From Gammaproteobacteria bacterium (GTDB lineage Bacteria > Pseudomonadota > Gammaproteobacteria > GCA-001735895): a DNA stretch of 6,752 bases. Made by a program: the position numbers and the translations under genes. Below are positions 91 through 6,519 of this stretch, in pieces (positions within the stretch are counted from its first letter, which is position 1; each line of letters starts with the position of its first letter). The stretch lies in assembly GCA_003645435.1 (NCBI GenBank), contig QNFD01000142.1, positions 1 to 6,752 of the forward strand, in the 5' to 3' direction. The notes beneath the pieces were generated by a model. It was not told the DNA's origin, did not search any database, and saw only the letters and a list, made by a program, of their open reading frames with translations.

Positions 91-930
91 CTATCCCCGC
101 GGAACCTTCCCGCCTATTGCATTAGTCACTTCGGCGGCGGCCCGCTTCACCATCGGCCCGAGTTTTGCGACAACCTGATCGGGAAATCGTACCGTCGGCC
201 CGGATACTGAAATTCCGGCAACCGCTTCACCGAAGGTATTGTAGATATTCGAGGCCACGCAGCGCATACCCGAATAACGCTCCTCATCGTCGATCGACCA
301 ACCGCGTTTACGGGTTTCTACGAGGTCGGCAAACAGCCGATCAGTTGATGCCAGGGTTTTCGAAGTGAACTCGGGTTGGCCTTTCAATTCCAGAATTTTT
401 TCCACATCCCGGCGAGGCATGTCGGCGAGGAGAGATTTACCGATACCGGATGCGTGCATATGACTGCGAGTACCGGGCCGAAAAAATGCGCGGATGGGAT
501 TGTGGGTTTCAATTTGATCGATAAAAACGACATCACCTTTATCGGCAATACCGAGATTTGCGGTCTCGCCCGTATCTTCCATCAAGCCACGCAATATTTT
601 TCTTGCGGCCTCCACCAGGTTGGTTCTCGCCAGGTAGGTATTGCCGATACGAAACGCTTCGATACCAACCTGCCACTCCTGGGTGGTTTCATCGAATCCG
701 ACAAAGCCGTGCTTCTGTAAAGTGAACAGGAGCCGATGGGTCGAGGAGGGCGGCATATCGGTACGAATTGCCAGGTCGGTCAGGGTGATGTTGCCGACCT
801 GGGCGAGTTCGCGTAACAGGATGAGACCGCGGTCGAGTGCTCGTACCGTGCTCAGTTTAGTATCTGTATCGACCGATCTGGGCCGGCCGCGTGGTCTTTT
901 CTGAACTGGTATTATTCTGTCTTTACTCAT
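91..930 (-). CDS. bhcR: IclR-family transcriptional regulator of the beta-hydroxyaspartate cycle (BhcR-like)
   Basis: This 279-aa protein is predicted to control the divergent bhcABCD operon. Residues about 26-85 form the IclR N-terminal winged helix-turn-helix, with the recognition-helix region MPPSSTHRLLFTLQKHGF near 59-76. Residues about 100-270 form the IclR effector domain, with the family hallmarks HASGIGKSLLA (159-169) and DDEERYSGMRCVASNIYN (214-231, C224). In IclR and its relatives this pocket binds small oxo-acids such as glyoxylate. A basic segment RPRGRP (12-17) before the HTH resembles an AT-hook core. In Paracoccus, the homologue binds the bhc promoter and glyoxylate weakens that binding; its action there is reported as activation. 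The start at 930 is chosen because the HTH is complete and upstream DNA is AT-rich and non-coding; no strong Shine-Dalgarno is visible. Family assignment is very secure. The BhcR name rests on its position next to the cycle genes, and no effector is proven here. Confidence 0.9.
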   Translation of the reverse strand: MSKDRIIPVQKRPRGRPRSVDTDTKLSTVRALDRGLILLRELAQVGNITLTDLAIRTDMPPSSTHRLLFTLQKHGFVGFDETTQEWQVGIEAFRIGNTYLARTNLVEAARKILRGLMEDTGETANLGIADKGDVVFIDQIETHNPIRAFFRPGTRSHMHASGIGKSLLADMPRRDVEKILELKGQPEFTSKTLASTDRLFADLVETRKRGWSIDDEERYSGMRCVASNIYNTFGEAVAGISVSGPTVRFPDQVVAKLGPMVKRAAAEVTNAIGGKVPRG

Positions 931-971
931 TTTTACACCGGCTATCCGCCTTTTAGTCTCCCGATCAGGTG

Positions 972-1000
972 AAATTAAAATTCCTGAAATTAATTTACAA
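972..1000 (-). promoter_or_regulatory. Candidate bhcR promoter (weak)
   Basis: On the minus strand, TTGTAA (plus coordinates 995-1000) is followed after 17 bases by TAATTT (972-977), about 40 bp upstream of the bhcR start codon. The -35 is fair but the -10 matches the consensus poorly, and such matches are easy to find by chance in AT-rich DNA. It overlaps the palindrome at 987-996, which would fit autoregulation. Confidence 0.3.
985..999. promoter_or_regulatory. Candidate operator, palindrome AAATTAATTT
   Basis: AAATTAATTT at 987-996 is a perfect 10-bp palindrome inside TGAAATTAATTTACA. It loosely resembles the E. coli IclR box (TGGAAATNATTTCCA as I recall it), with one base different in the spacing. 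It lies between the elements of the candidate bhcR promoter, where a bound regulator would block it. In such AT-rich DNA a chance palindrome is possible. Confidence 0.3.
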
Positions 1001-1006
1001 AAATTC

Positions 1007-1023
1007 TGGAAAATAAAAATCCA
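1007..1023. promoter_or_regulatory. Candidate BhcR operator, distal copy (TGGAAAATAA)
   Basis: The site begins with TGGAAAATAA (1007-1016) and ends with ATCCA, so its outer bases TGGA and TCCA are inverted repeats over 17 bp. The same decamer recurs at 1060-1069, 53 bp away and on the same strand. That is close to five helical turns, so both copies face the same side of the DNA. The left half matches the E. coli IclR box. BhcR binding is inferred. Confidence 0.4.
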
Positions 1024-1059
1024 CCGATAATCAATAAGTTAATCATTTAATATTAATAA

Positions 1060-1074
1060 TGGAAAATAATTTCA
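1060..1074. promoter_or_regulatory. Candidate BhcR operator, promoter-proximal copy
   Basis: TGGAAAATAATTTCA is a 15-bp imperfect palindrome with TG..CA ends. It matches the E. coli IclR box both in overall form (TGGAAA, short spacer, ATTTC) and in length. It ends 6 bp before the -35 element of the bhcA promoter, a position suited to an activator touching RNA polymerase rather than to a blocking repressor. It shares the decamer TGGAAAATAA with the site at 1007. Confidence 0.5.
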
Positions 1075-1080
1075 GAAAAA

Positions 1081-1108
1081 TTGAAAAATATTATAGATCA
1101 TTTATATT
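1081..1108 (+). promoter_or_regulatory. Candidate sigma70 promoter of bhcABCD
   Basis: TTGAAA (1081-1086) is followed after 16 bases by TATATT (1103-1108). Both hexamers are close to the sigma70 consensus, and transcription would start near 1115, leaving a leader of about 25 nt. AT-rich DNA upstream could serve as an UP element. The leader ends with AAGGA (1130-1134), a good ribosome binding site 6 nt before the bhcA start. No start-site data are available. Confidence 0.55.
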
Positions 1109-1140
1109 AGATCCAACATCAATATAGATAAGGAAAAACC

Positions 1141-2331
1141 ATGACCGGCCAGAACCCTGTTTTTATTCCAGGCCCAACGAATATTCCCGATCGCCTGCGC
1201 GCCGCGATGAACGTTCAGACATGCGATCACCGCGCGCCAGATTTTGTAGAGTTTCTTTTGCCCTTGCTTGAAGACCTGAAAAAAGTGTTTAAAACTGAAA
1301 CCGGCAGGGTTATTACCTTTCCGGCGAGTGGCACCGGCGGTTGGGAAGCGTCGATTACGAATACGCTTTCACCCGGAGACAAGGTACTGGCGGCGCGTTT
1401 CGGTATGTTCTCTCAGCGTTGGATTGATATGTGCCAACGACTCAATCTTGATGTAGAAATCATCGAGTGTGATTGGGGAACCGGTGCACCTGCCGAACGT
1501 TATGCTGAGCGATTGGCAGCCGACGGTAAACATGAAATCAAGGCGGTGCTGGTAACCCATAATGAAACCGCGACGGGCGTCAGGAGCGATGTTGGTGCCG
1601 TACGCAAGGCGATGGATGCGTCAAATCATCCCGCGATGCTGTATGTCGACTGTGTTAGTTCGCTCGCCTCGATGGATTTTCGCATGGATGAGTGGGGTGT
1701 GGACCTGGCCGTATCCGGTTCGCAAAAGGGTTTTATGCTGGCGACCGGTATGACGATTGTCGGTGTCAGCCAGAAGGCTATGGCTGCTTGTGATACCGCA
1801 ACTTGCCCACGCGTATTTTTTGATTTCGGTGATATGGCGAAGGCCAACGCTACCGGCGGATATCCCTATACTCCCGCGCTGCCGTTGTTGATGGGCTTAC
1901 GCGAAAGTCTGAAAATGCTGTTTGAAGAAGGTCTGGATAATGTTTTTGCACGCCACTTCCGTATCGCCGAGGGTGTACGCAGGGCGATCCAGGCCTGGGG
2001 TCTGAGTCTCTGCGCGGTGTCTCCCGATCTTTATTCCGATACCGTCAGCGCCATCTACGTGCCTGAAGGCTTCGATAGCGATGTGCTTACCAATCACGCC
2101 TTCGATAAGTACCGAGTTTCCTTCGGTGTCGGCCTGGGTGCAATGGCCGGTAAGGCATTTCGGATCGGCCATCTCGGATCCATGACCGATGTCATGGCGT
2201 TATCGGGTATTGCCGCGATTGAGATGGCGATGAAAGATCTCGATTATCCGGTCGAACTCGGATCGGGTGTCTCGGCTGCACAAGAGTACTACCGTAGTAG
2301 CACCAGTATTGCGCAATCTCAGGCTGCCTGA
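1141..2331 (+). CDS. bhcA: Aspartate-glyoxylate aminotransferase (BhcA)
   Basis: This cytoplasmic, PLP-dependent class V aminotransferase (fold type I) is assigned the step L-aspartate + glyoxylate to oxaloacetate + glycine, which releases the cycle product and supplies glycine to BhcC. The 396-aa length is normal for the alanine/serine-glyoxylate aminotransferase group. Visible features are the N-terminal GPTNIP (11-16), the cofactor-phosphate region SGTGGWEA (63-70), THNETATGV (139-147), YVDCVSSLAS (168-177) with D170 expected to bind the pyridine nitrogen, and SGSQKGFM (192-199) with K196 the Schiff-base lysine. The C-terminal RIGHLG (341-346) is expected to hold the substrate carboxylate. 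A clear AAGGA site supports the start. Sequence alone would allow a serine- or alanine-glyoxylate aminotransferase; the specific call rests on the bhcB, bhcC and bhcD genes directly downstream. Confidence 0.93.
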   Translation: MTGQNPVFIPGPTNIPDRLRAAMNVQTCDHRAPDFVEFLLPLLEDLKKVFKTETGRVITFPASGTGGWEASITNTLSPGDKVLAARFGMFSQRWIDMCQRLNLDVEIIECDWGTGAPAERYAERLAADGKHEIKAVLVTHNETATGVRSDVGAVRKAMDASNHPAMLYVDCVSSLASMDFRMDEWGVDLAVSGSQKGFMLATGMTIVGVSQKAMAACDTATCPRVFFDFGDMAKANATGGYPYTPALPLLMGLRESLKMLFEEGLDNVFARHFRIAEGVRRAIQAWGLSLCAVSPDLYSDTVSAIYVPEGFDSDVLTNHAFDKYRVSFGVGLGAMAGKAFRIGHLGSMTDVMALSGIAAIEMAMKDLDYPVELGSGVSAAQEYYRSSTSIAQSQAA

Positions 2332-2346
2332 GGGGAAAGTGAAGTC

Positions 2347-3345
2347 ATGCCTAAAACGAAACCATTGTATACCATGTCCAGTACCAACCAGCTCTACATC
2401 CCGACTTTTGAGGATGTGAAAGCAGCGCATAAACGGATCGCGCCTTATATTCATCGCACCCCGGTATTGACCTCAAGCTATTTCAATAATCTCAGCGGTG
2501 CGGAGTTGTTTTTCAAATGCGAAAATTTCCAGAAAGCGGGTGTTTTTAAGGTACGCGGCGCCTGCAATGCAGTATTTGGCCTGTCGGATGAAAAGGCAGC
2601 AAAAGGCGTCGCAACTCATTCATCGGGTAATCACGCACTGTCACTGAGTTATGCCGCGGGACGTCGAGGCATCCAGGCTACCGTGGTGATGCCCCGCACC
2701 GCACCCGAGGCGAAGAAGGCCGCGGTGCGAGGTTATGGCGGCGAGGTACTCGAATGTGAACCCTCGACTGCCGTACGTGAGGAAATGCTGAATGAATTAG
2801 TCGCAAGAACCGGCGCTGATTTTGTTCATCCCTACAATGACCATCGGGTCATCGCCGGGCAGGGCACCTGTTCACTCGAACTTTACCAGGATATTGAATC
2901 GCTCGATGCAATAGTCGCACCGATTGGCGGCGGTGGCATGATTTCGGGTACTTGTCTGACCATGTCTAACCTGTCACCAGAGACAGCTATTTATGCAGCA
3001 GAACCCAAAAATGCAGATGATGCTTATCGATCATTTCACGCGGGCGAAATAATCGAAGACGATTCACCGCAGACCGTTGCCGACGGGCTCAAGGTAAGCC
3101 TGCGTCCGCGCACCTGGCATTTTGTCTCGAAGTATGTGACTGATATTTTGCTCGCAACCGAAGAAGAAATCATCGAGGCGATGTACCTCACCTGGCAGCG
3201 CATGAAAATTGTTATCGAACCGAGCAGCGCCGTGCCGCTGGCGACCATACTCAAGAATAAACCACTGTTTGAAGGGAAACGCGTCGGCGTAATCCTGACC
3301 GGCGGCAACGTGGACCTTAAAAAACTTCCCTGGATGAATTCCTGA
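2347..3345 (+). CDS. bhcB: beta-Hydroxyaspartate dehydratase (BhcB)
   Basis: This fold type II PLP enzyme of the threonine dehydratase/serine racemase family is assigned removal of water from beta-hydroxyaspartate to give iminosuccinate, the substrate of BhcD. The 332 residues contain FKVRGA (67-72) with Schiff-base K68, the SSGNH loop (92-96), the phosphate-binding GGGGM (194-198), EPKNADDA (219-226) where E219, A223 and D225 fit the Mg-binding triad of serine racemase, EPSSA (291-295) and TGGN (318-321). There is no C-terminal ACT domain, unlike biosynthetic threonine deaminase. It starts 15 bp after bhcA. GGGGA at 2332-2336 lies rather far (10 nt) from this start. An in-frame ATG at 2374 (M10) would give a protein nearer to the usual N-terminus, but it has no visible ribosome binding site. 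Threonine dehydratase is the main alternative and is disfavoured by context. Confidence 0.92.
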   Translation: MPKTKPLYTMSSTNQLYIPTFEDVKAAHKRIAPYIHRTPVLTSSYFNNLSGAELFFKCENFQKAGVFKVRGACNAVFGLSDEKAAKGVATHSSGNHALSLSYAAGRRGIQATVVMPRTAPEAKKAAVRGYGGEVLECEPSTAVREEMLNELVARTGADFVHPYNDHRVIAGQGTCSLELYQDIESLDAIVAPIGGGGMISGTCLTMSNLSPETAIYAAEPKNADDAYRSFHAGEIIEDDSPQTVADGLKVSLRPRTWHFVSKYVTDILLATEEEIIEAMYLTWQRMKIVIEPSSAVPLATILKNKPLFEGKRVGVILTGGNVDLKKLPWMNS

Positions 3346-3363
3346 ATTAATTGGAGAAACGCA

Positions 3364-4518
3364 ATGAATGCAATCAATAAAGCCGCCGATTTTGTCGTTG
3401 GCCTGAATATCCCGGCCGAGATCGGTATGGACGCGGAAGACATCTGTACGCCCGCGCTGATCGTCGACCTCGACGCTTTTGAGCACAACATCGAAGTCAT
3501 GCAACAGTACATAGTGGAACATGGCCTGCGTCACCGTGCCCATGCAAAAACCCACAAGTCGGTTGATATCGCGCTTTACCAGATCGAACATGGTGGTGCC
3601 TGCGGCGTTTGCTGCCAGAAGGTTTCCGAGGCCGAGGCGATGGTTGCCGGCGGCGTAAAAGATGTGCTGGTTTCCAACCAGGTTGTCGATCGCAGGAAAA
3701 TCAACCGCCTCGCAATGATGGCAAAAAAGGCGCGAACCCTGGTCTGTGTCGATGATGCGGGCAATATCGATGATCTTTCCGCTGCCGCGGTGAAACACGG
3801 GGTGACGATTGAGTGCCTGGTCGAGATCGACTGTGGCGCCGGGCGCTGTGGCGTGCAATGGGGAGATCCCGTGGTCGCCCTCGCAAAAAAGATCGCTGCC
3901 AGTGATGGCTTGAAATTTTCCGGCCTCCAGGCTTACCAGGGTGCCGCCCAGCACGTGCACGAATTTGAGGAACGCAAGGGCAAGATTGATACCGCGATTA
4001 AGCAGGTGGCCGATACCGTCGAAATGCTGAAAGCCGAAGGTCTCGAATGTGACATCATCGGCGGCGCCGGTACCGGCTCTTACTACTTTGAGGGAACCTC
4101 GGGTGTCTACAACGAAATGCAGTGTGGTTCCTACATATTCATGGATGCCGATTATCAACGCGTAAAAGATGATAAGGGTGGAAACATCTCTGAATTTCAG
4201 AATAGCCTGTTTATCTGGACATCCATCATGTCAAAGGCTAAAGCTGACAAGGCTATCTGCGACGCGGGCCTGAAGGCGCAAAGTGTCGATTCGGGTTTAC
4301 CCGTGATCTTCGGGCGTAGCGATATCGAATACATCAAATGCGCCGACGAGCATGGTGTAATTTCCGATCCTGACGGCAGCCTGAAACTCAATGACAAGTT
4401 AAAGCTGGTTCCGGGCCACTGCGATCCGACCTGCAATGTCTACGACTGGTATGTCGGAGTGCGTAACGGCAAGGTCGAATGTCTGTGGCCGGTGTCGGCA
4501 CGCGGGATGGCATTCTAA
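3364..4518 (+). CDS. bhcC: beta-Hydroxyaspartate aldolase (BhcC)
   Basis: This PLP enzyme of the D-threonine aldolase/alanine racemase-like fold III group is assigned the carbon-carbon bond step glycine + glyoxylate to beta-hydroxyaspartate. The 384-aa protein has the N-terminal TIM-barrel signature RAHAKTHKS (58-66), where K62 aligns with the PLP lysine of D-threonine aldolases. It also has EIDCGAGRCGV (154-164), the phosphate-binding GGAGTGSYY (233-241), and PGHCDPTCN (350-358), where H352 and D354 match the divalent-metal ligands of the family. The C-terminal beta domain is complete, ending in WPVSARGMAF. GGAGA (3353-3357) lies 6 nt before the ATG, the best ribosome binding site inside the operon. 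It begins 18 bp after bhcB and overlaps bhcD by one base. D-threonine aldolase or 3-hydroxy-D-aspartate aldolase are the alternatives; the complete pathway around it decides. Confidence 0.92.
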   Translation: MNAINKAADFVVGLNIPAEIGMDAEDICTPALIVDLDAFEHNIEVMQQYIVEHGLRHRAHAKTHKSVDIALYQIEHGGACGVCCQKVSEAEAMVAGGVKDVLVSNQVVDRRKINRLAMMAKKARTLVCVDDAGNIDDLSAAAVKHGVTIECLVEIDCGAGRCGVQWGDPVVALAKKIAASDGLKFSGLQAYQGAAQHVHEFEERKGKIDTAIKQVADTVEMLKAEGLECDIIGGAGTGSYYFEGTSGVYNEMQCGSYIFMDADYQRVKDDKGGNISEFQNSLFIWTSIMSKAKADKAICDAGLKAQSVDSGLPVIFGRSDIEYIKCADEHGVISDPDGSLKLNDKLKLVPGHCDPTCNVYDWYVGVRNGKVECLWPVSARGMAF

Positions 4519-5483
4519 TGCTTATCGTAACCGAGGATACCTGCAAGCAGGTGATAGGGCGCGGCGATTCTTTTCAGGCGGTAGAAGCTGTTTTTGCCGC
4601 GATGGCAAAGGGTGATGCCTGGAATTTCCCGGTCGTTCGCGAGGCGATCGGATATGCCGATGCACTCTATGGCTTTAAATCTGGTTTTGATCGGGCCGGT
4701 CTTTCACTCGGCGTAAAGTCGGGCGGTTACTGGCCGGGTAACAGCAAAAAGGGACTGACCAATCACCAGTCCACGGTGTTCCTGTTTGACCCGGATAGCG
4801 GGCAGCTACAGGCGCTGGTCGGTGGTAATTATCTGACCGCGGTACGGACCGCCGCGTCCAGCTCGGTATCGATTGCCCATCTGTCACGCAAGGATGCCAG
4901 GGTACTCGGTATGGTCGGCGCTGGACATCAGTCCACCTTTCAGTTGAGGGCAGCACTCGAGCAGCGAGATTTTGGAAAAGTAATTGGCTGGAATCTGCAT
5001 AAGGACGACTTATCTAAACTACAGGCGATAGCCGAGGAAAACGGGCTGCCTTTCGAAGCGGTCGAACGCGAGCAACTTGCGGCAGAAGCCGATGTCATTA
5101 TCACCATTACCTCGGCACATGAATCGCTAATCATGAAGGACTGGGTAAAACCCGGTGTGCATATCGCCTGCATGGGAACCGACACTAAAGGCAAGCAGGA
5201 AGTCGATCCGGAGCTGGTGGCGATGGCCACCGTATTCACCGACGAAATCGCACAATCCGTAACCATCGGTGAGACCCAGCATGCGATTGCCGGCGGATTA
5301 ATCAGCGAAGACGATATCACCGCGATCGGCGATGTCATCAATGGTGATCATCCCGGGCGTAGCAGCGATACCGAAGTCACCCTGTTTGATGGCACAGGTG
5401 TTGGATTGCAGGATCTGGCGGTTGCCTCCGCAGCGGCAAAACTGGCGGTAGAGCAGGGCATGGCGCAGCAGGTTGAGCTTTGA
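4518..5483 (+). CDS. bhcD: Iminosuccinate reductase (BhcD), ornithine cyclodeaminase/mu-crystallin family
   Basis: This 321-aa enzyme is assigned NAD(P)H-dependent reduction of iminosuccinate to L-aspartate, which regenerates the amino donor used by BhcA. It has the ornithine cyclodeaminase/mu-crystallin fold: GVKSGGY (65-71) with the conserved lysine K67, TAVRTAA (107-113) with R110, a Rossmann dinucleotide-binding loop GMVGAGHQS (131-139), IACMGTD (216-222), and FDGTGVGLQDLA (290-301) with D291. The start at 4518 forms TAATG with the bhcC stop codon, which implies translational coupling. An in-frame ATG at 4479 would add 13 residues read from inside bhcC that do not look like family sequence, so it is rejected. 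Family relatives include alanine dehydrogenase and ornithine cyclodeaminase; the role here comes from the operon. Confidence 0.92.
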   Translation: MLIVTEDTCKQVIGRGDSFQAVEAVFAAMAKGDAWNFPVVREAIGYADALYGFKSGFDRAGLSLGVKSGGYWPGNSKKGLTNHQSTVFLFDPDSGQLQALVGGNYLTAVRTAASSSVSIAHLSRKDARVLGMVGAGHQSTFQLRAALEQRDFGKVIGWNLHKDDLSKLQAIAEENGLPFEAVEREQLAAEADVIITITSAHESLIMKDWVKPGVHIACMGTDTKGKQEVDPELVAMATVFTDEIAQSVTIGETQHAIAGGLISEDDITAIGDVINGDHPGRSSDTEVTLFDGTGVGLQDLAVASAAAKLAVEQGMAQQVEL

Positions 5484-5592: not shown

Positions 5593-6519
5593 TTAGAAAC
5601 CCAGTTCAATCCAGTAGGGCCGATGATCCGAACCATCTGCGGAATGATCGACCCAGGCCCGTTCGACCTGTTGAGCCAGGCAGGGGGAGAGGAAGCAATA
5701 GTCCAGGCACAAACCATGACCCGGCTCACGCTCGGGCGGATCAGGCCACCAACTGGTGCGATCATGTGATCGCTGTCTGGCACTGGTCCAGCTATCAACA
5801 AAGCCATCCAGATGCTCGACCCGGCCATTGCAAGGGTCTAGCGCCCCCACTATCCTGTCGTATTCCTCGCTATCGGGCACATTATTGAAGTCGCCCATGA
5901 CGACCGTTTCCGTGGGCATCACCGGTGCAGTCTCACCATTATTCCAGTTCAGTATGGCCATATGCTGGGCCTCGACTGGATTGACCTTCGCGTTTATATC
6001 ACCACCAGTCCAGGCACCGCCGCTCACCCGGGCGTTTCGATGAAATTCGAGTAACCGATCAATCTGCATAAGGCGATCTCGCGGAGAAACCGCGGAGAGG
6101 TGCAGGGAATAAACCTTAAGGGGACCTGAAGGCGTATCCACCACGCATTCAATAGCCCCGGTATCCATGTTCAAACTGTTCACCGTGCCCAACTTTGGAA
6201 ACACAATCAAACGCGACATCCGAATGGGCCAGCGAGAAAGCAGCATGGGACCAAATTGGCGGCGCCGATTGAGCACGGTTCCTTCATCGTTGCGCGTACT
6301 GGCATCCACATCGAATGCCGGACAATATGCCCAGTAGAACTCGGGCAGGTGATTTCCAAGGATTTCAGGCTGATCAGTCATGCCGCTGTGTTCCCAGAAA
6401 CGCTCCACTTCCTGCAAGGCGATAATGTCTGCATCTCGCACGGTTTCGGCGATGCGTCCAAGATCTACTTGCTGGTCGAGCCCCAGGCCAAAACGGATGT
6501 TATAACTAACAAGTTTCAT
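5593..6519 (-). CDS. Endonuclease/exonuclease/phosphatase (EEP) family protein
   Basis: This 308-aa metal-dependent phosphodiesterase or phosphatase has a full set of EEP (DNase I-like) motifs: SYNIRFG (5-11, N7), ALQEVER (34-40, E37 expected to bind metal), YSLHLS (137-142, H140), VMGDFNN (207-213, D210 and N212), CLDYCF (271-276, D273) and the terminal SDHRPYW (297-303, D298 and H299). It starts at the first residue of the domain and has no signal peptide, so it is probably cytoplasmic. The fold covers AP endonucleases, DNase I, sphingomyelinases, inositol phosphatases and deadenylases, and the motifs alone do not choose among them; it lacks recognisable ExoIII-specific features. It is convergent to the bhc operon and probably not part of the cycle. 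The catalytic set is intact, so it is unlikely to be a pseudogene. Confidence 0.88.
   Translation of the reverse strand: MKLVSYNIRFGLGLDQQVDLGRIAETVRDADIIALQEVERFWEHSGMTDQPEILGNHLPEFYWAYCPAFDVDASTRNDEGTVLNRRRQFGPMLLSRWPIRMSRLIVFPKLGTVNSLNMDTGAIECVVDTPSGPLKVYSLHLSAVSPRDRLMQIDRLLEFHRNARVSGGAWTGGDINAKVNPVEAQHMAILNWNNGETAPVMPTETVVMGDFNNVPDSEEYDRIVGALDPCNGRVEHLDGFVDSWTSARQRSHDRTSWWPDPPEREPGHGLCLDYCFLSPCLAQQVERAWVDHSADGSDHRPYWIELGF

Follow-up and report, generated by a model that had tools for sequence, protein, structure and literature searches.

What is a gene cluster of the beta-hydroxyaspartate cycle (bhc) when four of its five proteins pass the cut-offs of their families and the fifth, the aldolase, does not? 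We asked this of contig QNFD01000142.1, whose 6,752 nucleotides (the whole stretch analysed, called the window here) carry at 91–5483 what is, by family assignment, a complete bhcR/bhcABCD locus, as a preliminary description of this DNA had proposed. Our analysis points with good confidence to a working cycle operon of an uncultured gammaproteobacterium, in which the regulator BhcR would act from two palindromes and the aldolase gene, of a second type (type II), would have been exchanged with the Paracoccus type (type I). In such a cycle BhcA would convert glyoxylate to glycine with aspartate as amino donor, BhcC would condense this glycine with a second glyoxylate to beta-hydroxyaspartate, BhcB would dehydrate the product to iminosuccinate, and BhcD would reduce this to aspartate and close the cycle, with a balance of two glyoxylate to one oxaloacetate and no loss of CO2.

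The four enzyme genes lie on the forward strand as one predicted operon: bhcA (1141–2331, aspartate-glyoxylate aminotransferase; 719.2 bits against an NCBIfam equivalog cut-off of 650), bhcB (2347–3345, beta-hydroxyaspartate dehydratase; 591.1 against 550), bhcC (3364–4518, 3-hydroxy-D-aspartate aldolase, type II clade; 651.9 against 690) and bhcD (4518–5483, iminosuccinate reductase; 578.4 against 500). Divergent from them on the reverse strand is bhcR (91–930; 377 bits against 350), encoding an IclR-family regulator of 279 residues. This is the gene content of a cycle cluster, with all four enzyme families and the divergent regulator that had been described, and four of the five proteins (BhcR, BhcA, BhcB and BhcD) pass their cut-offs. 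The ATG of bhcD overlaps the stop codon of bhcC as TAATG; a bhcD start at 4479, taken from the mechanical open reading frame, is too early, as the NCBIfam model match begins at 4518. BhcD has the iminosuccinate reductase 6RQA as its best solved structure (421 bits, runner-up 162). For BhcA and BhcB the list of solved structures held no orthologue, and the top matches were a serine-glyoxylate aminotransferase (413.5 bits) and a serine racemase (338.5 bits). The catalytic lysines, earlier called intact, are so in the alignments: the pyridoxal 5'-phosphate (PLP) lysine is conserved in 68/68 BhcA proteins (K196) and 74/74 BhcB proteins (K68), and BhcC keeps K62. As comparison loci we used the best 80 of the 502 stretches from GTDB genomes that encode a BhcD relative, out of 534 candidate stretches. 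The gene order of the window is found again in these loci, which, together with the 502/534 count, excludes a chance assembly of genes. Searches of the window for tRNAs and for Rfam families found none. In a plasmid collection, 112 of the 887 records with a match carry BhcD relatives at 60–80% identity.

What sets the locus apart is its aldolase. All ten type II proteins scored, the window's included, lie below the 690-bit cut-off of the BhcC equivalog NF045642 (643.7–665.8), whereas eight of ten type I proteins reach 710.2–749.2 and the other two stand just under it (687.5 and 689.3). In the smaller of two BhcC trees, type I forms a clade of 35 rows (branch support 100/92) that includes the structure 6QKB and the comparison loci L002 and L003, and the type II rows fall outside it. 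The motif around the PLP lysine divides the proteins in the same way: of 78 aligned BhcC sequences, five (the window, L001, L004, L021 and L031) read HAKTHK and 73 read HGKMHK, so that the window's protein has neither the clade nor the motif of the Paracoccus type. A protein search with it returned at least 120 matches, all at least 77% identical among the matches listed and one of them the window's own; with those listed matches added, HAKTHK stands in 122/124 type II and HGKMHK in 74/74 type I sequences. Because L123 and L126, both in the type I clade, read HAKMHK, the methionine after the lysine is the better mark of type I. The window's BhcC is 92% identical to that of L001 (a fragment of 363 residues), 86% to L004, 83% to L031 and 80% to L021, and 58–71% identical over the best segments to the other loci, short fragments aside. 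Eleven positions separate the two types, and at five of them (61, 63, 120, 195 and 235) type II carries the commonest letter of D-threonine-aldolase-like proteins (present in 50–90% of 10 sequences); residues 61 and 63 are the neighbours of the PLP lysine, and 195 precedes the catalytic histidine by two positions.

This aldolase sits in an operon whose other genes have different relatives. The gammaproteobacterial bhcRABCD loci L002 and L003 are close to the window in BhcA, BhcB and BhcD (81–88% overall; 81–82%, 85–86% and 85–87%, respectively), with BhcR at 76–77% in L002, but their BhcC is of type I and just 67% identical to the window's. L002 and L004 are sisters in the trees of BhcA (99/82), BhcR (97/92) and BhcD (95/84), yet L002 has a type I BhcC and L004 a type II. 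In the approximately unbiased (AU) test, a clade of the window, L004 and L002 was rejected for BhcC (p 0.0005), whereas these three already form one clade in BhcA (100/97) and BhcD (100/98); in turn, a clade of the four full-length type II holders was rejected for BhcA (p 0.006) and BhcD (p 1.7e-6). All trees were built on chosen subsets (56 and 65 rows for BhcC, 43 for BhcD, 41 and 47 for BhcB, 39 for BhcA, 31 for BhcR, and 30–31 in the AU tests, from which L054 was excluded for BhcA), and very long branches belong to one paralogue in the BhcA tree (L068, 31%) and two in the BhcR tree (L024 and L068). In the five genomes with a type II BhcC, bhcA and bhcB adjoin the gene in 5/5 and bhcD in four, the operon of genome G001 being split over two contigs. 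A scan for a swap breakpoint found low identity along most of bhcC and about 80% in its last third, without a sharp breakpoint. Because the operon relatives L002 and L003 carry type I, the exchange would have taken place inside a shared operon: judged by the tree conflict, bhcC has been exchanged between sister operons, in either possible direction, with type II filling the Paracoccus-type slot.

Several points weigh against this. The AU p values are nominal, because the groups were named once the trees had been seen. For BhcB a clade of type II holders was not rejected (p 0.129), and the BhcB tree, which keeps the window, L004, L002 and L003 together at 87/92 and is unresolved in its wider version, neither supports nor rejects an exchange. 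Type II itself is monophyletic at 85/82 in the widest BhcC tree, the root is unresolved in the smaller one, and the rooting depends on long D-threonine-aldolase branches. The conflict could also reflect unrecognised paralogy, with an ancestor that had both types and lineages that each kept one, without transfer. Both types are indeed found inside one order, that of L001–L004 and L021, of which 41 genomes (drafts of unstated completeness) were examined; however, both full-length types together were seen in none of the six nearest genomes or the 41 of the order, each genome of the order with a BhcC match has one, except G001, which has two of type II that are 96.5% alike, and the alphaproteobacterial G207 has two matches that both read HGKMHK. 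We therefore consider paralogy unlikely and retain the exchange of bhcC.

On its own tree bhcB is mosaic as well, in its own way: the BhcB of the window group belongs to a group of 11 rows (100/100) shared with Aurantimonas, Rubricella, L021, L025 and L031. Three Aurantimonas loci (L020, L027 and L028) and one of Rubricella (L046) have a BhcB 84–87% identical to the window's, and BhcA and BhcD at only 71–78%. The gammaproteobacterial L073 (Motiliproteus) and L051 (Psychrobacter) have a BhcC that lies among those of Rhodobacterales and adjacent to the Paracoccus protein, which also points to transfer of bhcC. In G300 (L113/L158) a type II bhcC stands in an A-B-C cluster, with the sole bhcD on a separate contig, and the two contigs of G001 with type II bhcC pieces (L001/L156) may be two strains or two copies in one draft.

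Does the type II enzyme carry out the same reaction? The preliminary description took BhcC for the aldolase of the cycle without noticing that it misses its cut-off and is not of the Paracoccus type; its assignment nonetheless fits the nearest structure and the intact active site. The best solved structure is the D-3-hydroxyaspartate aldolase 6QKB (520 bits), followed by a D-threonine aldolase (370 bits), so that the window's protein stands closer to BhcC than to characterised D-threonine aldolases; among the protein families, too, BhcC scores highest for it by a wide margin. Residues K62, R161, Y191, H197, H352 and D354 align with Lys59, Arg157, Tyr187, His193, His347 and Asp349 of the Alcaligenes D-threonine aldolase 4V15 (active site as given in the available part of PMC4401734) and are identical in 6QKB. 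Residues that bind the metal and the carboxylate or serve as base are common to both families and therefore argue for neither. The D-threonine aldolases 4V15 and 7DIB share with the window's BhcC the fold family, the PLP lysine, the histidine base, the His/Asp metal site and the HAK motif, but score 150 to 208 bits below 6QKB and lie outside cycle operons in the loci seen. A preference for another substrate, such as a D-threonine-type beta-hydroxy amino acid, would make the operon a related but different glycine-releasing route. The missed cut-off, shared by 10/10 scored type II proteins, weighs on that side, as do A61 and T63 beside the lysine, A195 and A235, which match D-threonine-aldolase-like proteins and not type I. 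We regard such a preference as improbable, given the 150 bits that separate 6QKB from the nearest D-threonine aldolase, the neighbouring bhcA, bhcB and bhcD, which by family score are bona fide cycle genes, and the widest BhcC tree, in which types I and II are joined (98/91) to the exclusion of D-threonine-aldolase-like proteins; this is the outcome of a tree comparison that had been proposed earlier. Genomic context and nearest structure thus favour a beta-hydroxyaspartate aldolase function.

The host is most likely an uncultured gammaproteobacterium, as judged from the BhcA, BhcD and BhcR trees and an unrelated flanking gene. The nearest BhcD proteins (85–88%) are those of L001–L004, of which three are titled Gammaproteobacteria and one Proteobacteria. 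The window groups with all four in the BhcD tree (100/98), and with L002 and L004 in the BhcA (100/98) and BhcR (100/99) trees. The flanking gene, at 5593–6519 on the reverse strand, encodes an endonuclease/exonuclease/phosphatase-family protein (PF03372, 66.3 bits) outside the pathway, and provides the taxonomic marker on the same contig that had been called for: its full-length or nearly full-length relatives at 80% (G004), 70% (G005) and 58% (G002) all lie in the order of L001–L004, against at most 47% elsewhere in the class (369 genomes) and at most 48% at full length in the alphaproteobacterial class (385 genomes). An alphaproteobacterial host or a mis-assembled contig is very improbable: L031, titled Alphaproteobacteria, does have a type II BhcC at 83%, and a 262-bp contig of G060, of the alphaproteobacterial class, is 77% like residues 1–87 of the flanking protein, but the three trees, the full-length relatives just given and the BhcC relatives P0006 (95%) and P0014 (92%), both named Gammaproteobacteria, all speak for the other class.

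The gammaproteobacterial host had been proposed before, and that conclusion stands on other grounds than those then given. The G+C content of the window (0.525) fits the alphaproteobacterial L006, L008 and L011 (0.53) equally well. The hairpin is real, a perfect 10-bp inverted repeat at 16–36, downstream of bhcR (CCCTCTCCCT-N-AGGGAGAGGG), and yet the motif CCCTCTCCCTNAGGGAGAGGG occurs in none of the eight genomes searched, the five nearest included. Nor do the neighbours of L001–L004 help to place the host, as no flanking gene is common to all and only L002 and L003 share two downstream genes. In L004, bhcD is followed at 9147–10361 by a GCV_T-family gene (folate-dependent aminomethyltransferase type). 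A host outside Rhodobacterales, as the preliminary description had it, is supported, but is no surprise: the available part of PMC11323563 already states that both Alpha- and Gammaproteobacteria run the cycle, which makes a gammaproteobacterial locus an expected find, and titles of that class (Amphritea, Psychrobacter, Colwellia and Neptunomonas among them) stand on about 22 of the 80 nearest BhcD loci by a rough count. A paper on North Sea Gammaproteobacteria (PMC8371827) mentions the pathway in its reference list only.

The regulator would sense glyoxylate and act from the gap between bhcR and bhcA. Eight of nine ligand-pocket positions in Table 1 of PMC11323563 equal those of Paracoccus denitrificans BhcR (a hand count from the alignment), which is a BhcR-type pocket; the exception is position 143, with Pro in place of Thr. 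The parts of that paper at hand describe one palindrome, located upstream of the -35 region of bhcA, and propose a two-site model, in which BhcR represses itself and activates bhcA. Judged against the P. denitrificans cluster in the same parts, the window agrees in gene set and gene order, in having a divergently encoded IclR regulator, in the family scores of BhcR, BhcA, BhcB and BhcD, and in a candidate palindrome upstream of the -35 region of bhcA; it differs in the clade of its BhcC, in Pro143 and in its gammaproteobacterial host.

Two candidate operator boxes of the pattern TGRAA-N5-TTYCA, overlooked earlier, lie 90 bp apart in the gap. Box 2, on the bhcA side (TGGAAAATAATTTCA, 1060–1074), matches without mismatch and ends 66 nt before the bhcA ATG; box 1, on the bhcR side (TGAAATTAAAATTCC, 970–984), has two mismatches, and a one-mismatch alternative to it (TGAAATTAATTTACA) begins at 985. 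One or more boxes with no more than one mismatch were found in 47 of 49 bhcR–bhcA gaps (5.18 expected from shuffles), and a pair with at most two mismatches each and 80–100 bp apart in 38/49 (shuffle mean 1.89, maximum 5). Pairs with at most one mismatch each were spaced 87–92 bp in 24 of 32 cases, with a mode of 89. At other places of the same loci such a pair occurred in 6 of 2450 random and 2 of the 49 most AT-rich positions, the latter with an AT content of 0.54, below the 0.64 of the gaps. Directly downstream of box 2, at 1081–1108 on the forward strand, lies a promoter-like TTGAAA-16-TATATT; since the scan found one such element against 1.1 expected in shuffles, no better than chance, it is distinguished by its position only. 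The pairing itself has points against it: box 1 is weak alone, 11/49 gaps lack such a pair, the gaps are non-independent draws because the loci are related, and the pattern, which goes back to an IclR consensus, was picked after the window had been read. On balance, the paired candidate boxes are fitting for the dual-site BhcR model, as set out in the available part of PMC11323563.

A relation that the preliminary description had overlooked emerged from the order of L001–L004. A BhcC match (E <= 1e-120) is present in 21 of its 41 genomes, a BhcA match at 72–87% in 10 and a BhcD match (E <= 1e-100) in eight. Thirteen genomes have BhcC without canonical BhcA or BhcD (L141–L153), and in 13/13 bhcB adjoins bhcC. 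These pairs resemble the window in BhcB (62–74%), BhcC (64–72%) and the motif H[ASV]KTHK; unlike the window, they lie in genomes without canonical bhcA or bhcD, beside purine genes and an AGXT-like aminotransferase gene. The neighbour groups, built by BLAST and annotated from one representative each, comprise aminotransferase-like (12 of the 13), IclR (10), allantoinase-family (8), OHCU-decarboxylase-family (7), xanthine-dehydrogenase-small-subunit-type (5) and HIUase-type (4) genes. Representatives of PuuE (517.8 against 424.6), xdhA (666.1 against 467) and HIUase (126.3 against 87.45) exceed their cut-offs, and that of the OHCU group matches PF09349; those of IclR (343.1 against the BhcR cut-off of 350), BhcB (544.9 against 550) and BhcC (615.6 against 690) fall below. 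The closest match of the pair-linked aminotransferase is alanine-glyoxylate aminotransferase (94 bits); the protein stays under its Pfam cut-off, and its PLP lysine is conserved in the 14 sequences aligned. Of eight gaps between IclR and the neighbour gene c6, seven contain a box that deviates from the pattern at one position at most, and in five of these there is a pair 96–109 bp apart (raw counts). A role of c6, a PanE/ApbA-like reductase gene, as a stand-in for bhcD was set aside: its position is the sole evidence, and G008 has both. The contig L154 of G008 carries malate synthase G, an AGXT-like gene, a PanE-like reductase gene, then bhcD and the end of bhcC, and looks transitional between a cluster of the purine type and a cycle operon.

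The purine-linked group (13 rows) stands outside types I and II in the BhcC tree (100/99) and is sister to the window group in the BhcB tree (99/98); because it is placed differently in the two, bhcB and bhcC differ in history. One possible reading, which we hold tentatively, is that BhcB–BhcC forms a module that can be exchanged and is both older and more widespread than the cycle. It would have a linear form that takes up glyoxylate released from purines, in which the AGXT-like aminotransferase replaces BhcA and a BhcR-like regulator acts on similar paired boxes; lacking an iminosuccinate reductase, this form would leave iminosuccinate to hydrolyse to oxaloacetate. Type II BhcC would be a form between the purine-linked aldolase and the Paracoccus type, and type I would have displaced it later in sister operons. 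Malate synthase G lies near some of the pairs as an alternative glyoxylate sink, which argues against bhcBC being the only one there. A literature search by topic, over sources available in part, found no link between hydroxyaspartate and allantoin or purine catabolism; in the available part of PMC11323563, purines are mentioned as a source of glyoxylate, and AllR is described as related to BhcR.

The pathway itself is complete and expected for its group; the aldolase is what deserves a variant name of its own. Type II has none in current annotation, where NCBI sources call it a 'DSD1 family PLP-dependent enzyme'. For the question of how BhcR acts as both repressor and activator, the gap offers exact candidate sites. 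If the purine-linked form exists as outlined, purine-derived glyoxylate would be a further input to the same chemistry. A cycle that serves as a blueprint for metabolic engineering would thus have a second natural aldolase, one that nature appears to have swapped into the same operon.

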